DNA from: Halobacterium jilantaiense
GTDB lineage: Archaea; Halobacteriota; Halobacteria; Halobacteriales; Halobacteriaceae
Direction: 5' to 3'
NCBI RefSeq assembly: GCF_900110535.1
Contig: NZ_FOJA01000001.1
Span: 558,001 to 622,000 of the forward strand
DNA: 64,000 nucleotides
Of the stretch, positions 7,948 to 42,699 are shown piece by piece (the first letter of the stretch is position 1; the number at the start of each line of letters is the position of its first letter). The position numbers were made by a program, and so were the translations under genes. The notes beneath the pieces were generated by a model. The model did not search any database, had not been told where the DNA came from, and saw only the letters and a list, made by a program, of their open reading frames with translations.

Positions 7948-8567
7948 CTGACGTTCACCACACGTACGACCGCATCGCCGGCCACTTCGCGCAGACTCGC
8001 GAGTACCCGTGGCCCGAGGTGGAGTCGTTCCTCGACGGCAGGACGGCCGAGGTCGCCCTGGATTTGGGCTGCGGGAACGGCCGGCACGCCGAACTGCTCG
8101 CGGAGCGCGCCGACCGCGTGCTCGGCGTCGACGCCAGCACGGGCCTCCTGCAGGAGGCAAGCGAGCGCGCCAGCGACCGCGAGTTCGCGGTCGACCTGGT
8201 CGCCGGCGACGCCGCCCGGGTGCCGCTGCGGGCCGACTCCGTCGGGCTCGCCGTCTACGTCGCGACGCTGCACCACCTCCCGGACCGACGGGCGCGCGTC
8301 GCGAGCCTCGACGAACTGGCTCGCGTCCTGCGCGCTGACGGGGCCGCCGTCGTCTCCGTCTGGAGCACGGAACACGACCGGTTCGACCAGAACGAGGGAT
8401 TCGACACGACTGTGGACTGGACGCTACCGGGCGGCGAGACGGTCCCCCGGTTCTACCACGTCTACGACCCCGCCGAGTTCGACGCCGACCTCGCGGCCAG
8501 CGGACTCTCGGTGGTGGCGTCGTTCGTCTCCAGCGGCAACTGTTACGCCGTCGTCACGCCGGAGTAG
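7944..8567 (+). CDS. Trm9/ALKBH8-like tRNA wobble-uridine methyltransferase
   Basis: A 207-residue class I SAM methyltransferase. The N-terminal YDRIAGHFAQTR..PWP signature closely matches eukaryotic Trm9/ALKBH8. SAM-binding motif I is DLGCGNGRH near residues 40-48. Further similarity includes LHHLPDRRAR, VSVWS and the C-terminal FYHVYDPAEFDADL with the family's FYH-Y element. Known Trm9 proteins finish the 5-carboxymethyl ester on U34 of tRNA-Arg and tRNA-Gly. The start ATG overlaps the pilC stop (ATGA), so translation is probably coupled. A tRNA-Gly(UCC) gene follows 166 nt downstream. Substrate assignment is an inference from similarity. Confidence 0.8.
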   Translation: MTDVHHTYDRIAGHFAQTREYPWPEVESFLDGRTAEVALDLGCGNGRHAELLAERADRVLGVDASTGLLQEASERASDREFAVDLVAGDAARVPLRADSVGLAVYVATLHHLPDRRARVASLDELARVLRADGAAVVSVWSTEHDRFDQNEGFDTTVDWTLPGGETVPRFYHVYDPAEFDADLAASGLSVVASFVSSGNCYAVVTPE

Positions 8568-8733
8568 GGCGAACAGGCGGACGCACTCGCTGTCGTCGCG
8601 CGGCGCGTCCGCCGGGTTCGCTCGGCCGCGCGACGGCGACAGTCAGACCACGCCGGGCGCGGTCCCGGCATCGGGTTTGAATCCTCGCCCGAAGGGAAAC
8701 GCCCATAAACGACGGCGGGGAACGTGGAAGTGA

Positions 8734-8804
<71 letters not shown>

Positions 8805-8858
8805 CTAATTCTACACTTAGATTCCCTCTAGTGGCAATTTTAGGATTCGTATGTAGGA

Positions 8859-8867
8859 TATTTATAC
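8859..8867 (+). promoter_or_regulatory. TATA box upstream of transducer gene
   Basis: TATTTATAC in AT-rich DNA. It is the best promoter-like element in the gap, but it lies about 265 nt from the chosen transducer start, implying a long leader. Confidence 0.45.
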
Positions 8868-9040
8868 ACGAAAATAAGCGTGGTTCCACTGAGAACGACT
8901 CTCGTTGTTAGAATTACCAATTTTATTATGTTCTTGGGGATGGTGTACGCGAACGATGCTCGAGGACGAGGCGGAGGCCGACTAGTCGGGCGTCTGAGTG
9001 GCGGGGCTCTTGGTTCGGTGAGCCGGAACGAACCGCGGGT

Positions 9041-9071
9041 GAATAGCCCCATCCGTGATGGGGTGCTATTC
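9041..9071 (+). other. hairpin in transducer leader
   Basis: An inverted repeat with 13 perfect base pairs in two blocks: GAATAG/CTATTC and CCCCATC/GATGGGG, with a 2-nt bulge and a CGT loop. It lies 58 nt before the ATG at 9129. It could be an RNA structure controlling translation or transcription, or a relic of a mobile-element terminus. No T-run follows, so a simple terminator is less likely. Confidence 0.6.
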
Positions 9072-9128
9072 TCAGCACTGAAACTGGAATGCGTACGCTT
9101 TTCCGTCGAAGTACTGCAGCCACTGGCA

Positions 9129-11543
9129 ATGTCAGTTCGGTCGTCGCTGGGTGCAGTGGGACGCCGCCTCCTGCCGGGGTTCGTGCGGCGGAGCTATCTC
9201 GCGAAGTTCGGTGCGGCGCTCCTCGTGGTGGTGGTCTGTATCGGCGCGGTCGGCGCTGTGACGTACACTGACACGTCGAGCCAGCTCCGGGCGTCGTCCG
9301 AAGCGGAGTTCACGACGGCGGCCGAGTTGAGCGCGTCGTCGGTGAGCGAGTGGCGCGACGAACGCAGGAACAACGCGCGGATGCTGGCACAGTACGGCGT
9401 CCTCGAGAACGGCCAGAACGCCGAAATCCGGGAGTTCCTGGAGGGCGAACTGGACGCCCTGCCGGCCGACGTCGGGAACATCCACTACGTGGACTTCGCG
9501 AATCAGGAGGTGGTCGCGAGCACGGCTGAGGGTCTTCAGGGCGAGCGGCTGAACAGGGACGACACGCCGTGGAGCGAGCAGGGCGTGACCTACGGACCCA
9601 ACGGCGTCTTCGTCTCCGACCCGTACGTGAACGACGGCGGGACACGGGTGGCGTACGTGGCGCGAATCGACGCCGACCTCGGGCGGCGCGCGGCGGTGGT
9701 GATGACGACGAGTCTGGCCGAGGTGACCGGGAGCTTCCGGAAGCCGACCGGGGACAGCTTCACGCAGCTCGTCGGCGGTTCGGGTTCGGTGGTCGCCGAC
9801 GACAGCGAGGCCGCGACGATGCAGCCCTACGTCGACAACGGGAGTTCGGCCGTCGAAGGCGCGACCGAGGCCGGCTTCGTGAGCGCAGGGTCGGTGACGA
9901 AGACGCTGGCGTCCGACCACGTGGTGGCGTATGCGCCGGTGGAGGGCACGCCGTGGGTGGTCGCGCTGCACGTGCCGACAAACGAGGCGTACGCGCTCCA
10001 GTCGACGGTCAGCGAGAATCTGCTGTTGATGCTCGGGGTGGCGCTGGCCGGCCTCGGGTTCATCGGGCTGACGCTCGGCCGGGGGACGGTGACGGCGCTG
10101 AACGTTCTGGAGCGGAAGGCGGAGGCGCTGGAGCGCGGCGAGTACGACACCGACCTGAGCGTGCGTCGGGTTGACGAAATCGGCGGGCTGTTCGCGTCGT
10201 TCGCGAGTCTGCGGGACACCGTCCAGGAGCGCATCGGGGAGGCCGAAGCACAGCAGGAGGCCGCGGAGGCGGCGCGCGCGGAGGCCGAGACGGCGCAGGC
10301 CGAGGCCGAGGACGCCCGGGAGCGCGCCGAGGACGCGCGACAGGCGTCCGAACAGCAGGCCCGGGAACTGGAGGAGACGGCCAGCGAGTTCTCGGCGTCG
10401 ATGGCGGCGTACGCCGCGGGCGACCTGACGGTGCGGCTCGACGAGACCGTCGACCAGACGGCGATGGCGGACGTGGCGGCGTCGTTCAACGAGATGGCGG
10501 CGGACATGGAGTCGACGGTCGCGGACGTCGTGGCGTTCGCCGACGAGGTGGCGGCCGCGAGCGACGAGGCGTCGGCGCACGCGGAGCGCGTCGAGCAGAC
10601 GGGGCGCGAGGTCTCCGACGCCGTCGGCCGCATCAGCGAGCGCACGGACGAGCAGCGCGACGAACTAGAGGGCGTGGCGGGCGAGACCGACGAGATGTCC
10701 GCGACCATCGAGGAGGTCGCTGCGAGCGCCGACGAGGTCGCCGAGACGTCACAGAGCGCGGCCGCGCTGGGCGACGACGGGCGCGAGGCCGCCAGCGACG
10801 CCGTCGCCGAACTCCGGGACATCGAGACGGAGACCGAACGGACGGCCGCGGCGGTCCGCGAACTGGAGTCCCGGATGGCCGAAATCGAGGACATCGTGGA
10901 CGTCATCACGGACATCGCGGAGCAGACGAACATGCTCGCACTGAACGCGAACATCGAGGCGGCCCGCGCCGACAAGGACGGCGAGGGCTTCGCCGTCGTC
11001 GCCGACGAGGTGAAAGACCTCGCCGACGAGACCAAGGAGTCCGCCGCCGAAATCGAGGCGCTCGTCACGGAAGTTCGCGAGCAGACCGACGAGAGCGTGG
11101 CGGCGATGGACGGCATTCAGGACCGCGTCGCCGACGGCGTCGAGACCGTGGAGGCGACGGAGGACGCCCTCTCGGACATTGTGGCGCGCATCGAGGAGGC
11201 CGACACCGGCGTCCAGGAGATTTCGCGGGCGATGGACGACCAGGCGTCGTCTGTGACAGACGTAGCGGCGGCCGTCGACGACGTGGTCGGCCTCGGCGAG
11301 GAAACCGCCGAGGAGGCCGACCAGGCGGCGGACGCCGCGGGCGAGCAGGCCGCGACACTCGGGGAGGTCACCGAACAGACTCGGACCCTCTCCGACCGCG
11401 CGGCGGCGCTCCGCGAGCAGGTCGCTCAGTTCGAAGTCGACGCCGCTGGGGCCGGTGACGAGTCACCGGACGACAGCCCGGAAGCGAGTGTCGACGCGGC
11501 GGTCGAAGAAGTCAGGACCGACGGCTTCGACTGGCGGGACTGA
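9129..11543 (+). CDS. methyl-accepting chemotaxis transducer (Htr type)
   Basis: An 804-residue halobacterial transducer. TM1 is near residues 28-48, followed by an extracellular Cache-like sensing region to about 290, TM2 near 297-316, HAMP near 317-370, a long Glu/Ala-rich coiled coil, and the methyl-accepting signalling domain. The hairpin tip [20 protein letters not shown] near residues 597-616 is the CheA/CheW-contact motif. It ends in DGFDWRD. The extracellular Cache-type domain suggests direct sensing of a small molecule, which is unknown. ATG 9129 gives the basic RRSYLAK segment just before TM1, as in related transducers. Confidence 0.92.
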
Positions 11544-28060: not shown

Positions 28061-29302
28061 TCACTCGTACCGCAGGGCCTCGATGGGGTCGGTCCGCGCC
28101 GCGCTCCAGGCCGGGTAGAGACCGGCCCCGACGCCGACGAGGATGCCGACGACGACCGCGATACCCGCCCACTCGACGGGGAACGTCATCGCGAGGTCGA
28201 CGTACTCCGTGGCAGCGTACGCCCCCAGCACTCCGAGGACGATGCCCGCGAGGGAGCCGACGACGCCGAGGACGACGGCCTCGACGATGAACAACTGGAG
28301 GACGTCGCTGTTCTGCGCGCCGACGGCTTTCATGATGCCGATTTCGCGGGTGCGTTCGGTGACGGAGACGAGCATGATGTTCGCGATGCCGATGGACCCG
28401 ACCACGAGCGAGATGACCGCGACCCCGGTCACGAACGCGGTGAAGGTGTCCAGCAGCTCCCGAATCTGGTCGACGAGGTCCTCGACGGTCTGCACCCGGA
28501 ACTCGTAGCTCCCGGGTTTGAGGGTTCGGGCGTCGGAGTCCTCGTCGAGGTACGTCTGGACGTCGCTCTGGACGGCGTCGACGGCGGAGAACTCGCTGGC
28601 GACGACGGTCACCGTCGGGTAGACGCGCTGGGGGGAGTCGCTGCTCGGCGCGTCCAGCCGCGTCTCGTAGAACGGGTCCGTCGGGACGTACACCTGCGGG
28701 AGGGGTTCGTTCCCGAACGGCCCCTCGCCGGCCGCCAGCACGCCAGCGACCGTCGCGTTCACGCGGCTGCCGTTCTGTCGGACGACCGCCACGGTGTCGC
28801 CGACGGAGACGTTCCCGGGGAACAGCCGCGCCGCGGGCTCGTTCACGACGACCTCGCGGGTGCCCTGCTCGAACGTCGTCCCGTCGCTGAATCCGCTGGT
28901 CGCGACGTACTCGAAGCTCTCCGGAGTCGTCGCAGTCAGGCGATTGTAGCCGAGCGTCCGGCCGCCCGCGGCCAGCCCCGATATCGGAACGGTCCCCTGC
29001 GGGACGACCGCCGCGGTGTCCTCGATGGCCCGGAGCTGTTCGATGTCGTGTTCGGTGAACACTGCCTGACTCTCCCCGGGCGGACCGGGCTGGTCGTCGG
29101 CGGGCCCGGTCGACACCGTCATCAGGGGCGGCTGGTCGCCCGACACCTCGCCGATGACGTCGGCCTGCAGGCTCGCGCCGAGCGTGACGAACGTGATGAC
29201 GGCGGCGACACCGATGGCGACCCCGAGCGTCGTCAGCACCGACCGCAGCCGGTGGCCGCGGATGGCGCGCACGCTCATCCGGAAGCTCTCGACGGGGTTC
29301 AC
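28061..29302 (-). CDS. MacB-like ABC transporter permease
   Basis: A 413-residue permease with the MacB/LolC-like architecture: TM1 near residues 20-42 ([20 protein letters not shown]), a large exterior MacB-PCD domain (about 45-270), then three C-terminal helices (FtsX-type) with [27 protein letters not shown], the coupling motif. It overlaps the ATPase gene by 4 nt. MacB-type systems do not import across the membrane like classical permeases but act on exterior substrates or partner proteins. Context ties it to the P19-like and DyP-like proteins. Confidence 0.9.
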
Positions 29303-30033
29303 TGCTCACCACCCCCGGTCGCGGTCGGTCGCCGGGGCTCCGCGACGCGCTCCTCGCGCTCGACCTCGCCGTCGAGCAGGTGGACGATGCGGTCGGCGTG
29401 CTCGGCGATGTGGCGTTCGTGCGTGACGACGAGGACGGTGTTGCCGGCGGCGTGGAGGTCCGCAAACAGCGCCATGATGTCCCGGCCGGTCTCCGAGTCG
29501 AGGTTCCCCGTGGGCTCGTCGGCGAGCAACAGCGCCGGGTCGTTGGCGAGCGCGCGAGCGATGGCGACCCGCTGGCGCTGGCCGCCCGACAGTTCGTTCG
29601 GTCGGTGGCCGGTGCGCTCGCCGAGCCCGACCCTGTCGAGGAGGTCGGCGGCGCGCTGGTCGCGCTGGCGGCTCGGCACGCCCTGAAACAGCATCGGCAG
29701 CGCGACGTTCTCGGCGGCGGTGAGCCGCGGCATGAGGTTGAACGTCTGGAAGACGAACCCGACTGCCGTCCCCCGAATCGTGGTTCGGGCCTCCTCGGAG
29801 AGGTCGCCGACGTTCTCGCCGTCGACGACCACCCGGCCCTCGGTGGCCGTGTCGAGGCAGCCGACGAGATTCATCAGCGTCGACTTCCCGGAGCCGCTGG
29901 GCCCCATCACGGCCGTGTACGACCCCCTGGGGAGCCGCAGGGAGACGCCCCGGAGCGCGTGGACGGGCTGACCGCCGAGCTCGTAGGTCTTCCGCACGCC
30001 GTCGAGCACGACCGCGGGTGCCACGTCGCTCAT
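29299..30033 (-). CDS. ABC transporter ATP-binding protein (MacB/LolD type)
   Basis: A 244-residue ATPase with Walker [10 protein letters not shown] near residues 45-53, the Q-loop FQTFNLMP, signature LSGGQRQR near 142-149, Walker [13 protein letters not shown] and the H-loop VTHE. The NLDSETG stretch and length are typical of the LolD/MacB subfamily. It is coupled to the permease through a 4-nt overlap and sits 112 nt downstream of the P19-like gene on the same strand. Confidence 0.93.
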
Positions 30034-35963: not shown

Positions 35964-36318
35964 CAGAGACTCAGGACTGCGGACGGTTAAACGACTCCAC
36001 CGATGCGGAATCCTGGGACAACGCCCTACTATTCAAGTGGCCTTTATAACCGTCGTCCGCCGTGTTTCGGCGCGTGGCTCCCGTATCGAGTCACAGTCGT
36101 CGTCGGTGGACGGACCAATGACCGGAACCACCCCCGAATATCCGACACGAACCGAGTTGCACAAGTAGTCCCGTCGCTGACTCGCCCTAATATTTGTACT
36201 CCGAGACTGGTCAAATACTCTAAGATACCGCGTGAGAGCGGCTGTACGGTTATCACAGGCGAGAAACAGAGGCTTGAGCTTATACCGTCCGCCCCAGTCC
36301 GTTGGAGCGAGAGCGACC
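35964..36318. other. intergenic region between halocyanin and BMP lipoprotein
   Basis: This 355-nt gap between divergent genes holds the halocyanin promoter (GTTTAACC near 35984-35991, minus strand), an orphan plus-strand TATA-like CTTTATAACC at 36042-36050, and the promoter of the BMP-type gene at 36279. No convincing small gene or RNA was seen. The orphan TATA could drive an unannotated short RNA. Confidence 0.45.
36279..36286 (+). promoter_or_regulatory. TATA box for BMP lipoprotein-transducer operon
   Basis: CTTATACC, centred about 36 nt before the GTG start at 36319, the only strong promoter-like element near the gene. It supports a short leader. Confidence 0.55.
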
Positions 36319-37455
36319 GTGAACGACGCTACGACGAGACGACAACTGCTCGCAGGCGCGGGCGCTGCCGCCGCAGGGGCGCTCGCCGGCTGCACGGGGG
36401 GTATCGGAGGAAACAACGGGGACAGCGGCGGAGGGGAGAGCGACACACCCACCGCGGCCGCGGCCGTCGACGAGGACGCGGCCGCCGCTATCGGGATGGT
36501 GTACGCGCTCGGCGGGCTCGACGACCGGTCGTTCAACGACGCGGCGAACCGCGGCGTCCAGCGCGCCCGCCTCGACCACGGCATCGAGTACACCAACCAC
36601 GAACCCGGCAGTGTTCCCGCGTTCGCGGACGTCCAGGCGGAGCTCGCCGCTTCGACGAACCCGAACTACGACCTCGTCTGCTGCATCGGCTTCCTCCAGG
36701 CCGAGGGGCTGTCCGCGACAGCGCCGGAGTACGGCGACCAGCAGTTCATGATCGTGGACTCGGTCGTCGACGCCGACAACGTCGCCAGCTACGTCTTCGA
36801 GGAGCACAAGGGCTCGTTCCAGGCCGGCCACCTCGCGGGCCTGCTGACCTCCCGTGACGTGAGCCTCGGCGGCGGCGCGACCAACCCCGAGGAGGCCACC
36901 GTCGGCTTCGTCGGCGGCGTCGACCAGCCGCTCATCCACAAGTTCCAGGCGGGGTTCGAAGCGGGGGTCGCGTACGCGGACGAGGACATCGACGTGCTCA
37001 CCGAGTACCTCGGGAACTTCAACGACGCCCAGGGCGCTCGGGACATCGCCGCGGACATGTACGAGTCCGGTGCCGACATCGTCTACCACGCCGCCGGCGG
37101 TGCCGGCCTCGGGGTCTTCCAGGCAGCGCAGGCCCACGGCCGGTACGCCCTCGGCGTCGACTCCGACCAGTCCCGCAGCAACCCGCGGTACGCCGACGTC
37201 GTACTCGCGAGCATGGTGAAACGCGTGAACATCGCGGTGTACGACGCCGTCGCCGCGACCGTCGAGGACGCTCTGCCGGTGGGTGAGGTCGTCTCCCTCG
37301 GCCTCGACCGCGACGGCGTCGGTATCGTCTACGGCACGTCACTGGAGCCGGCGATTCCCGACGACGTCCGCGACGCGCTCGCCGAGTCACGGCAGGCAGT
37401 CGTCGCCGGCGACATCGACGTGCCATCGGAACTTCCACCGACGGGTGGTGCCTGA
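36319..37455 (+). CDS. BMP/PnrA-family nucleoside-binding Tat lipoprotein
   Basis: A 378-residue protein. The Tat motif RRQLL and lipobox LAGC (Cys25) are followed by an Asp/Gly/Ser linker and a basic-membrane-protein fold starting [17 protein letters not shown], the classic BMP/PnrA/Med opening. Later come [43 protein letters not shown] and ALGVDSDQS, all BMP signatures. Bacterial members bind purine nucleosides. No ABC permease is nearby; instead the stop codon overlaps a chemotaxis transducer start (TGATG). GTG 36319 puts the Tat signal at the right place. It probably presents its ligand to that transducer. Confidence 0.87.
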
Positions 37456-39827
37456 TGGCGGGCAGCATCCTCGCGCGGGTCGCCGGTGCGCTCGACCGGC
37501 TCGCGCCCGGGTTCGTCCGCCGACGGTACGCGGCGAAGTTCGCCATCGCGTTCCTCGCGGTGCTCGTCGTCATCGGCGGTGCCGGCGCGTTCACCTTCCA
37601 GGAGACGTCCGCCGCGGTTGAGCGCCAGACCACGCAACAGCTCGCGGAGACCAGCCAGATCGAGGGCGACGGCATCGGGTCGTGGGTGGAACAGCAGCGC
37701 ACGCACACGCGGTCAATCTCGCAGGGCGACCCCCTGCGGAGTGACCGGCAGGCGGCGGCGTACATCCTCTTACAGGACGAGTTACTCCCTGACGACGTGG
37801 TGAGCATGCACCTCGTGAACGCCAGCCGCGACGAGGTCGTGGCGAGTACGGAGCTCCCGCTGGAGGGGCGCGCCCTCTCGGAACTCCAGGCTCCGTGGAC
37901 GACGGCGTCCGTGCCGGAAGGCCCCGGCAACAACAGCGAGGTCTGGTCGAGCAGGCGGTCGTACCGGTCGCCCGTGCTCAACGACGAGCCCGTGATGGCG
38001 TTCGCCAGCTCGGTGCCGAAACGAGACGGCTCGTACCTCGTCGTCGTCACGCGCATCCAGAGCCAGGTCGACCGGCTCACGGACCCGAACTCCACGAAAC
38101 AGACGACCATCCTGAACACCGACGACGAGACGGTCCTGAACATCGACCGCGAGTTCGACACCGACACCCACAGTGACAGCCTCGCGGCCATTCGGGACGC
38201 GAACGGCACCGCAGCCCCGGTCACGTCGGTCTCCGGAGGTCGCGTGTACGCGTTCGCGCCCGTGCCGCACACCGACTGGGTGACGGTCACGAGTGTCGAC
38301 ACGGCCCAGGCGTTCAGTGTCCGTGACACGGTCGGCGAGACCGTCGGGCTGCTCGTGTTGCTCGCAGTCGTCTCGCTGTCCGTCGTCGGTTTCGTCCTCG
38401 GGAAGCGCACGGTCGACCCGCTGAAGCGCCTGCGGGACCGCGCCGAACGCATCGAGGCCGGCGAGTTCGACGTCGACCTCTCGACGAGCCGCATCGACGA
38501 GATCGGCCGGCTGTACGGGAGCTTCGACGACATGCGGGTCTCGCTCCAGCAGCGCATCCAGGAAGCAGAAGAGGCGGTCGAGAACGCCGAAGCCGCGCGG
38601 GCGGAAGCCGAGGAGCTCCGCACGGACGCGGAAGACGCACAGGCCGAGGCCGAACGCGCGAAAGAGGACGCCGAGGAAGCCAGCCAGCGCCTCCAGAAGC
38701 GCGCCGCCGAGTACAGCGGGGTGATGCAGGAGGTCGCCGCCGGTGACCTCACGAAGCGCCTCGACGAGGACGCCGAGGAGGCCGCGATGCGGGAGGTCGC
38801 CGTGGAGTTCAACGCGATGCTCGACGGCCTCGAAGCCACCGTCGGCGAGGTCGCGGTGTTCGCCGACCAGGTCGCCGACGCCACCCTCGAAGTGGCGACC
38901 GGTGCCGAGGAGATCGAGACGACCAGCCAGACGGTCAGCGAACGCATCCAGGAGATCGCCGACGGCGCAATCAGGCAACACGACGACCTCGAGACCGCCG
39001 CGGGCGAGATGGACCAGCTGTCCGCGAGCATCGAGGAGGTCGCGGCGTCCTCCACGACAGTCGCGCAGACCGCCGAAGAGGCCGTCGACCGCGGGGAGAC
39101 GGGCCGCGAGGCCGCCGAGTCCGCCCTCGAAGACATGGCGGAGATCGAGTCGCTGTCGGCGGACGCCGTCGACCAGATTCTCGAACTCCAGAGCCGCATG
39201 GCAGACATCGGCGAGATTGTCGACTTCATCACGGACATCGCGGAGCAGACGAACATGCTCGCGCTGAACGCGAACATCGAGGCGGCCCGCGCCGACAAGG
39301 ACGGCGAGGGCTTCGCCGTCGTCGCCGACGAGGTGAAGAGTCTGGCAGAGGAGACGAAGCAGGCCGCGGCCGACATCGAGTCCGAAATCGAAGCGGTCCA
39401 GACGGAGACCGACGACACCGTCTCGGACATCCGCGCGACGAGCGACCACATCGACACCGGCGTCGAGACTGTCCGCGAGGCCGCCGACGCTATCGAGGAC
39501 ACCGTCGACGCTATCGAGGACGCCAACCACGGCATCCAGGAGATTGCGGACGCGACCGACGACCAGGCCGACGCCACCCAGAGCGTCGTCCGCCGCGTCG
39601 ACGAGGTCGCAGACATCAGTCAGAACGTCACGCAGGACGCCGAACAGGTGTCCGCGGCCGCCGAAGAGCAGTCCGCGTCCGTCGCCGAAATCGCGCGCAG
39701 CGCGGACGAACTGCGGGAGCGCGCCGACTCGCTGGCCACGACCGTCGGTCAGTTCGAGGCTCGCGACCGCGACGACGCGACCACTGGGTCGGAGTCGTCG
39801 AACGACACCGCGTCGGTCGACGACTGA
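37455..39827 (+). CDS. methyl-accepting transducer paired with BMP lipoprotein
   Basis: A 790-residue transducer: TM1 near residues 28-48, an exterior region to about 295 (with [14 protein letters not shown], Cache-like), TM2 near 297-316, HAMP near 317-370, coiled coil, and the methyl-accepting domain with the tip [20 protein letters not shown] near residues 596-615. Its ATG shares a nucleotide with the BMP gene stop. In Halobacterium the BasB-BasT and CosB-CosT pairs work this way, with lipoprotein-bound ligand sensed by a transducer. By analogy this pair should sense nucleosides, which is an inference. Confidence 0.92.
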
Positions 39828-41615: not shown

Positions 41616-42347
41616 CTAGTACACCGAACGCTCGTTGCTCTCGTTGGCGTCGTCGTGTGCCCAGAGACCCACGTTGTTCTCCCGAGCAGTCGTCTCCGCA
41701 GCCTGTAGTGCATCTGCGTACGGGGAGTCGGAGTTCGTCAGTGTAGCCATGCCCTGCTGGAGGAGGTACTCGTTGAACATCACCTTCTCACCGTTGTCGT
41801 TCTCGAAGTAGACGTACACGAGAGGCGTCCCGTTCTCGGTCGTCCGGTCAGTATGAACGATAGTCGGGGCACCACCTATCCGGTTCAGGTCATTCTCTAC
41901 AGCCGAGGCTGCATCGTACCCGTACCCCACAATCGCCTTCTTGTGTGCCTGTGTTTCGCTCTCGTTGGCCGCTTCGTGATAGCCGTAGTCGGCAGGCGTA
42001 ACTTCGGACTCGTTCAACGGCGGAGTGCTCACGTCAGCGAGCTTCACCAGCGCGTGCTCGTCCGCTTCATCATAGTAGAACAAGAACGTATCACCAGAGA
42101 CGGTGCGGCTGGCGATACCCGTCTTGTTCCCGGTCTGGAACGACTTCGCCCCAGTCGGTTCCGTGGACGGCGCTTTCTCGACAGTCTCAACAGGTGCCGC
42201 AGTGGTCGTGGCGCTCGTCGGTGCGGCTGTCGGTGTTGATGCGTCAGTCGTCATCGCAGTTGTCGTATCCGTAGACGTTCCTCCACCCATGCAACCCGCA
42301 GTGGCGAGCAACATGGCGAGACCGATAGTTGCGATAATCTGTTTCAC
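41616..42347 (-). CDS. staphylococcal-nuclease-like lipoprotein
   Basis: A 243-residue protein. The short signal KQIIATIGLAMLLATAGC has a lipobox Cys19 and no twin arginine. A Thr/Ala-rich linker (about 22-62) is followed by an SNase/thermonuclease-like domain: DTFLFYYDEADEHALVKLADVSTP, NESETQAHKKA, VYVYFENDNGEKVMFNEYLLQQGMATL and AETTARENNVGLWA. Catalytic Arg/Glu of true nucleases are not clearly seen. Base composition is less GC-rich than the neighbours, suggesting acquisition. GTG 42347 lies about 28 nt after a TATA box. Confidence 0.72.
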   Translation of the reverse strand: MKQIIATIGLAMLLATAGCMGGGTSTDTTTAMTTDASTPTAAPTSATTTAAPVETVEKAPSTEPTGAKSFQTGNKTGIASRTVSGDTFLFYYDEADEHALVKLADVSTPPLNESEVTPADYGYHEAANESETQAHKKAIVGYGYDAASAVENDLNRIGGAPTIVHTDRTTENGTPLVYVYFENDNGEKVMFNEYLLQQGMATLTNSDSPYADALQAAETTARENNVGLWAHDDANESNERSVY

Positions 42348-42370
42348 TCCACGCTGCCTAATCTGACGTT

Positions 42371-42379
42371 GTATAATAA
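42371..42379 (-). promoter_or_regulatory. TATA box for nuclease-like lipoprotein
   Basis: TTATTATAC on the minus strand, centred about 28 nt before GTG 42347, supports that GTG as a leaderless start. Confidence 0.55.
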
Positions 42380-42480
42380 TACATCTGAAAAGGGCCGACA
42401 ACAACCCTCTCACGAAGACAGTTCTGAGACGGAACTCCCGCAGTTCGGCGGCCGTGACGAACTCGACGGCCGGCACTTCC

Positions 42481-42699
42481 TCACTCGCCACCGCGACCAC
42501 CCCCGAAGAGGGGTGCGTCGTGGTCCGGACGCGTCTCACCGAGTGGGCTCAGGCCGAAGTCCTCCGGATCGTGGTCGCCAAGGTGGTGGTAGCGGTCCTC
42601 GTTCTTCGAGAATTCGTAGCCGCAGGCCGGGCAGACAGTGAGCGAGTGGACTCGCCGACCTCGCGAATACCGGACCGTCGCGAGGCTCACGCCGACCAC
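42481..42699 (-). CDS. small C2H2-type zinc-finger protein
   Basis: A 72-residue protein with CPACGYEF, then HHLGDHDPEDFGL: a CxxC...HxxxH arrangement typical of short haloarchaeal zinc fingers, many of which are borne on mobile elements or act as regulators. Start choice is uncertain: GTG 42699 gives 72 residues, and GTG 42690 removes three. It lies on the same strand as, and upstream of, the nuclease-like lipoprotein, but the promoter of the latter is separate. Confidence 0.6.
   Translation of the reverse strand: MVGVSLATVRYSRGRRVHSLTVCPACGYEFSKNEDRYHHLGDHDPEDFGLSPLGETRPDHDAPLFGGGRGGE

Follow-up and report, generated by a model that had tools for sequence, protein, structure and literature searches.

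A BMP-family lipoprotein paired with a chemotaxis transducer in Halobacterium: a candidate nucleoside taxis system of haloarchaea

The 64,000-nucleotide stretch of Halobacterium jilantaiense DNA analysed here (C1:558001-622000 of a 2.95 Mb genome; hereafter the window) encodes a substrate-binding lipoprotein of the BMP/PnrA family directly followed by a methyl-accepting chemotaxis transducer. We consider it probable, from comparison of sequences and gene neighbourhoods, that the pair mediates nucleoside taxis through a binding protein, as in BasB-BasT but with a binding protein from a family new to this scheme. The narrower proposal, that haloarchaea dedicate a relative of the binding protein that serves the nucleoside importer, together with a BasT-type transducer, to taxis to nucleosides or deoxynucleosides, seems to us somewhat better than an even chance.

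Organization of the locus

The two genes lie on the same strand and meet in a TGATG, where the TGA of the lipoprotein gene and the ATG of the transducer gene (at 37455) overlap by one base. The features of the locus are given below.

36250..36255, +, TTATCA element, from inspection of upstream sequences, without a statistic
36280..36285, +, putative TATA-like promoter box TTATAC, 34-39 bases before the GTG, read from the sequence
36319..37455, +, BMP/PnrA-family substrate-binding lipoprotein, 378 aa, GTG start, TGA stop (Pfam Bmp; PDB matches)
36319..36393, +, Tat signal and lipobox, TRRQLL...ALAGC, lipid-bearing Cys25 (from sequence)
37453..37457, +, TGATG stop/start overlap, a likely coupling of both genes (from sequence; one shared base, at 37455)
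37455..39827, +, two-TM methyl-accepting chemotaxis transducer, 790 aa, ATG start (Pfam)
37587..38354, +, extracellular sensor domain, divergent dCache_1 (Pfam matches of homologues, weak PDB profile match)
38397..38552, +, HAMP domain (Pfam, E 6e-17)
39108..39617, +, MCP signalling domain with conserved tip (Pfam, E 2e-40; sequence)

The overlap of stop and start had been pointed out in the initial annotation and is as described there, but the accompanying phrase ‘translationally fused’ overstates it, these being two separate genes that overlap. The arrangement suggests translational coupling of lipoprotein and transducer. A single promoter upstream had also been proposed, and inspection agrees with this: the TATA-like TTATAC precedes the GTG, and the gap between the genes is too small for a promoter. 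A T-rich box is seen by inspection at a comparable position upstream in related loci. By inspection, many of the nearer BMP–transducer loci (L055-L080) also have TATCA/TGATA motifs 5' of their T-rich box, with near-perfect palindromes in a few (e.g. AATATCAGTACTGATATT in L068); the pattern was not seen upstream of ABC-linked BMP operons. A fixed palindrome pattern fits only 3 of 36 loci, and we therefore do not claim an operator upstream of the pair.

By Pfam, the neighbours of the pair are a Cys/Met-metabolism PLP enzyme, a CBS protein, a halocyanin-like cupredoxin, a DUF4367 lipoprotein and a nuclease-domain protein, with no ABC permease among the neighbouring genes in the window. The closest ABC gene encodes an ATPase (29299-30033) 6-7 kb upstream; the earlier statement that no ABC transporter is nearby holds for BMP-type ABC genes, none of which stands beside the pair. 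A staphylococcal-nuclease-domain protein with a lipoprotein-like signal is encoded 1.8 kb past the transducer (41616-42539, - strand) and could release nucleotides outside the cell; the closest relative has no such gene called next to its pair. The nearest relative found at the pair's locus is Halobacterium sp. TGN-42-S1, with 80% protein identity. Elsewhere in the window, a second transducer gene (8880-11543, + strand) has a related sensor domain (27% identity), and the gene calls place no binding-protein gene directly before it.

Conservation of the pair and its ABC-linked paralogue

The first 315 residues of the transducer were searched against 392 genomes of the order. An orthologous sensor domain is found in 36 haloarchaeal genomes from nine genera at 41-100% identity, the next matches lying below 40%; a phylum-wide sample (393 genomes) gave no orthologous transducer outside the order. 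At every one of the loci whose sensor domain is at least 41% identical (36/36), a BMP lipoprotein gene stands immediately upstream on the same strand, and the link between BMP protein and transducer is beyond chance. The junction itself is kept as TGATG in the 13 nearest loci; genus g11 mostly has ATGA overlaps and also TGATG, and several other orthologous loci have gaps of +1 to +6 bases between the genes. No match to yufP or yufQ occurs in any BMP–transducer locus taken with its flanks. Conservation of the pair without an ABC transporter, a check proposed at the outset, is borne out, no BMP-type ABC genes accompanying the pairs. The unit has the make-up of a haloarchaeal binding protein–transducer pair: a Tat lipoprotein gene beside a co-oriented two-TM HAMP-MCP transducer, conserved and free of dedicated ABC permease genes.

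Some loci of genus g11 have, upstream of the pair, an unrelated ABC cluster of the NMT1 type; its ATPase was considered as part of a BMP transporter and rejected, as the binding protein of the cluster is NMT1-like. On the other side of the pair in this genus, deoC is convergent with the transducer in all five loci with enough flank (5/5). DeoC aldolase degrades deoxyribose phosphate derived from deoxynucleosides. This neighbour fits a deoxynucleoside ligand, within a single genus and as one lineage event.

All 36 pair-bearing genomes encode one or more additional BMP proteins. YufO-type ATPase and permease genes follow the BMP gene in 20 of the 20 second-BMP loci examined, many of which also hold PGM/PMM, cdd and phosphorylase genes. 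The complete ABC operon of the window genome (C1:541115-550006 in contig coordinates) lies outside the window, about 46 kb upstream of the pair, in the order PGM/PMM, BMP, ATPase, two permeases, cytidine deaminase (cdd) and PNP_UDP phosphorylase. Ten other Halobacterium genomes have the ABC-linked BMP only (with its frame split in one assembly), which argues against Hbt. salinarum OE2170R or OE2196F as BMP proteins. The BMP proteins of plasmid records are below 60% identity, and the best of them belongs to an ABC operon with a nucleoside hydrolase.

In a maximum-likelihood tree a single branch (support 99/98) separates the 36 transducer-linked from the 30 ABC-linked BMPs; the outgroup branches are too long to tell which side is ancestral. 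The Haloarcula copies (L056-L066, genus g25, including Haloarcula amylolytica) are nested within the Halobacterium copies in both this tree and that of the sensor domains, which suggests intergenus transfer; they are nearer to the window's pair than a third Halobacterium species is.

Binding pocket, sensor domain and alternative readings

The lipoprotein matches Pfam Bmp (PF02608) with E 3.7e-59 and 200.6 bits (cut-off 24.1) over profile positions 5-291 of 301, and its PDB matches include PnrA of T. pallidum (2fqw, E 2e-36). A strict pattern of twin arginine and AGC is found in 33 of the 36 orthologous lipoproteins; the remaining three have a Phe difference in the lipobox. According to crystallography and mutagenesis of BmpA, BmpD and PnrA, the pocket has two stacking Phe residues (essential in BmpA), one further Phe and, on the ribose side, Asp/Lys residues (PMC7093131, PMC13325309). 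In the alignment, F72, N73, D147, F234, D281, D283, Q284 and K301 are invariant in all 36 transducer-linked BMPs, while F209 and V280 are kept in 35/36; these positions match ones described for BmpA as conserved or essential (PMC13325309). The two base-sandwiching Phe (F72, F234) and the ribose Asp/Lys (D147, D281, K301) of PnrA-type proteins are thus present in 36/36. The base-contacting Asp27 of T. pallidum PnrA is not; the base-facing loop has Ala63/Leu64 in place of Asp27/Ser28, position 63 being Ala in 34 and Ser in two of the 36. Base recognition therefore differs from that of PnrA, and base preference is not readable from the sequence. The ABC-linked BMPs carry Ala, Ser or another small residue at the Asp27 position. 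Their pocket is more variable than that of the transducer-linked proteins (F/Y/W at 234, D/N at 147) and therefore the ligands of the two groups need not be equal. The two groups also differ at positions 68, 77, 85, 93, 168 and 286.

These results bear on the initial annotation's proposal of nucleoside chemotaxis. A pair of the BasB-BasT kind stands, and nucleosides are retained as the predicted ligand class on account of the invariant PnrA/BmpA pocket, the nucleoside-catabolic operon of the paralogue and deoC in one genus. A preference for purines in particular is not established, given the Ala63 that replaces Asp27 and the cytidine deaminase in the paralogue's operon; the further suggestion that the nucleosides come from extracellular DNA is likewise not established. 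The altered loop would also suit a protein that has kept the BMP fold and retuned its base site for a different ligand of the family (nucleobase, flavin, vitamin B6 or another heterocycle), and BMP members with other ligands include the riboflavin protein TpN38(b), an atrazine-binding protein (both among our PDB matches) and a B6 subfamily. We regard such a ligand as unlikely, because none of the 36 sequences departs from the stacking Phe pair or from D147, D281 and K301 on the ribose side, and because the operon of the paralogue is one of nucleoside catabolism; for vitamin B6, the lipoprotein scores 51 on the B6 model against a cut-off of 400.

The sensor domain of the window's transducer has no match in Pfam. 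Among 38 homologous sensor domains 34 match dCache_1 (best E 7e-11), and a sensor-domain profile matches dCache chemoreceptor chains in the PDB weakly (E 4e-4 to 0.04). In this weak profile alignment the dCache_1AA motif is lacking at R126, Y129 and D173 of PctA, with W148 kept; beside W148, D/E and T/S/A predominate at the Arg and Tyr motif positions, and T/S/A-R-I-Q stands in the D173 region. Further along, the aromatic Tyr170 may have a counterpart in the dCache amino-acid motif, again on a weak alignment. Sister sensor domains (33-38% identity) adjoin Tat lipoproteins of the Peripla_BP_6 type, two identified by Pfam and the others by sequence. Peripla_BP_6 is the binding-protein type that we expect for BasB. 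In a tree of sensor domains the BMP-linked ones lie on one side of a branch (92/98), as do the Peripla_BP_6-linked ones (99/94). The sensor domains group by the family of the adjacent binding protein, as expected if binding protein and transducer touch. Structure predictions for the sensor domain and for the lipoprotein, each from a six-sequence alignment, had mean pLDDT values of 32 and 34, respectively, and were discarded.

This grouping bears on whether the lipoprotein might mainly be an extra binding protein for the distant ABC importer, the operon serving only for co-expression with a transducer that binds its own ligand through the dCache domain. The genome does have a BMP-type ABC transporter, and direct binding of small ligands is common among dCache domains (PMC11245519), but the transducer-linked BMPs form their own group, always with this transducer, and the sensor domains track the binding-protein family. 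Direct binding is further disfavoured by the alignment, in which neither the dCache ligand Asp (position of PctA D173) nor the Arg and second aromatic of the amino-acid motif have a counterpart, and by the reported absence of the purine-binding dCache_1PU from archaea (PMC11245519); we hold the importer-accessory role to be improbable. Nucleosides could instead elicit, through the transducer, a non-tactic output such as biofilm formation or gene regulation. The genome, however, has one CheA gene and eight archaellin-family genes, along with other transducers, and the MCP domain is of the standard kind, which makes such an output very improbable.

Our preferred reading thus remains nucleoside taxis through the lipoprotein; nucleoside binding, docking, the attractant sign and the physiological role are all inferred. 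The BMP protein, Tat-exported and lipid-anchored, would close on a nucleoside between two Phe, the ribose being held by Asp/Lys residues, as in PnrA, BmpA and BmpD. Once closed, it would dock on the transducer produced with it, at the dCache domain, and the transducer may then signal through its HAMP domain and MCP tip to the single CheA of the cell. Uptake of nucleosides would be left to the ABC-linked paralogue encoded elsewhere in the genome.

Relation to known binding protein–transducer systems

BasB-BasT of Halobacterium salinarum, with HVO_0553/0554 among its orthologues, serves chemotaxis to branched-chain and sulphur amino acids by way of its binding protein. The pair described here resembles it in having a lipid-anchored binding-protein gene beside that of a two-TM transducer, and in the relatedness of its dCache domain to those beside Peripla_BP_6 Tat lipoproteins. 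It differs in its binding protein, which is of the BMP/PnrA rather than the Peripla_BP_6 family, in its sensor domain, only 33-38% identical to the Peripla_BP_6-linked group in our set, and in its predicted nucleoside ligand. The two-gene logic is also that of CosB-CosT, the Hbt. salinarum system for compatible osmolytes (PMC3579733), likened here from its published description; the binding-protein family and the ligand are again different. Transducers of Hbt. salinarum copurify with BasB, CosB and two further putative binding proteins (PMC3579733).

On the side of the binding protein, the lipoprotein shares its Pfam family and its stacking and ribose residues with PnrA (TmpC) of T. pallidum, PnrA of S. 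pneumoniae and BmpD and BmpA of Borrelia. Those proteins serve ABC importers, or are presumed to, whereas the window's lipoprotein is transducer-linked and without the Asp27 that contacts the base. A functional parallel is the taxis of E. coli to pyrimidine deoxynucleosides via Tap, shown in 2025 and thought to be indirect through a periplasmic binding protein (PMC12584664). The binding protein of E. coli is unknown (PMC12584664), whereas here a candidate is tied to its transducer in an operon.

The literature searched, which leaves out most subscription journals, contains no published BMP–transducer pair. The arrangement is known; as far as that literature shows, what is new in it is the family of the binding protein and the probable class of ligand. 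If the proposed function is true, this would be the first binding protein identified for indirect nucleoside sensing and the first use of a BMP protein in chemotaxis. The pair offers a testable candidate binding protein and receptor for nucleoside sensing in archaea. The matching groups of BMP proteins and sensor domains open partner recognition to comparative study, which bears on how binding proteins shift between transport and signalling.

Two further arrangements were seen among the orthologous loci. In two genomes (L087, L088; about 8550-10950) a distant second transducer, 24-26% identical in the sensor domain, directly follows the pair. In L095 about 3 kb separates the BMP–transducer pair from a Peripla_BP_6-type lipoprotein–transducer pair on the same strand, which makes this locus a natural place to ask how a binding protein recognizes the right transducer.
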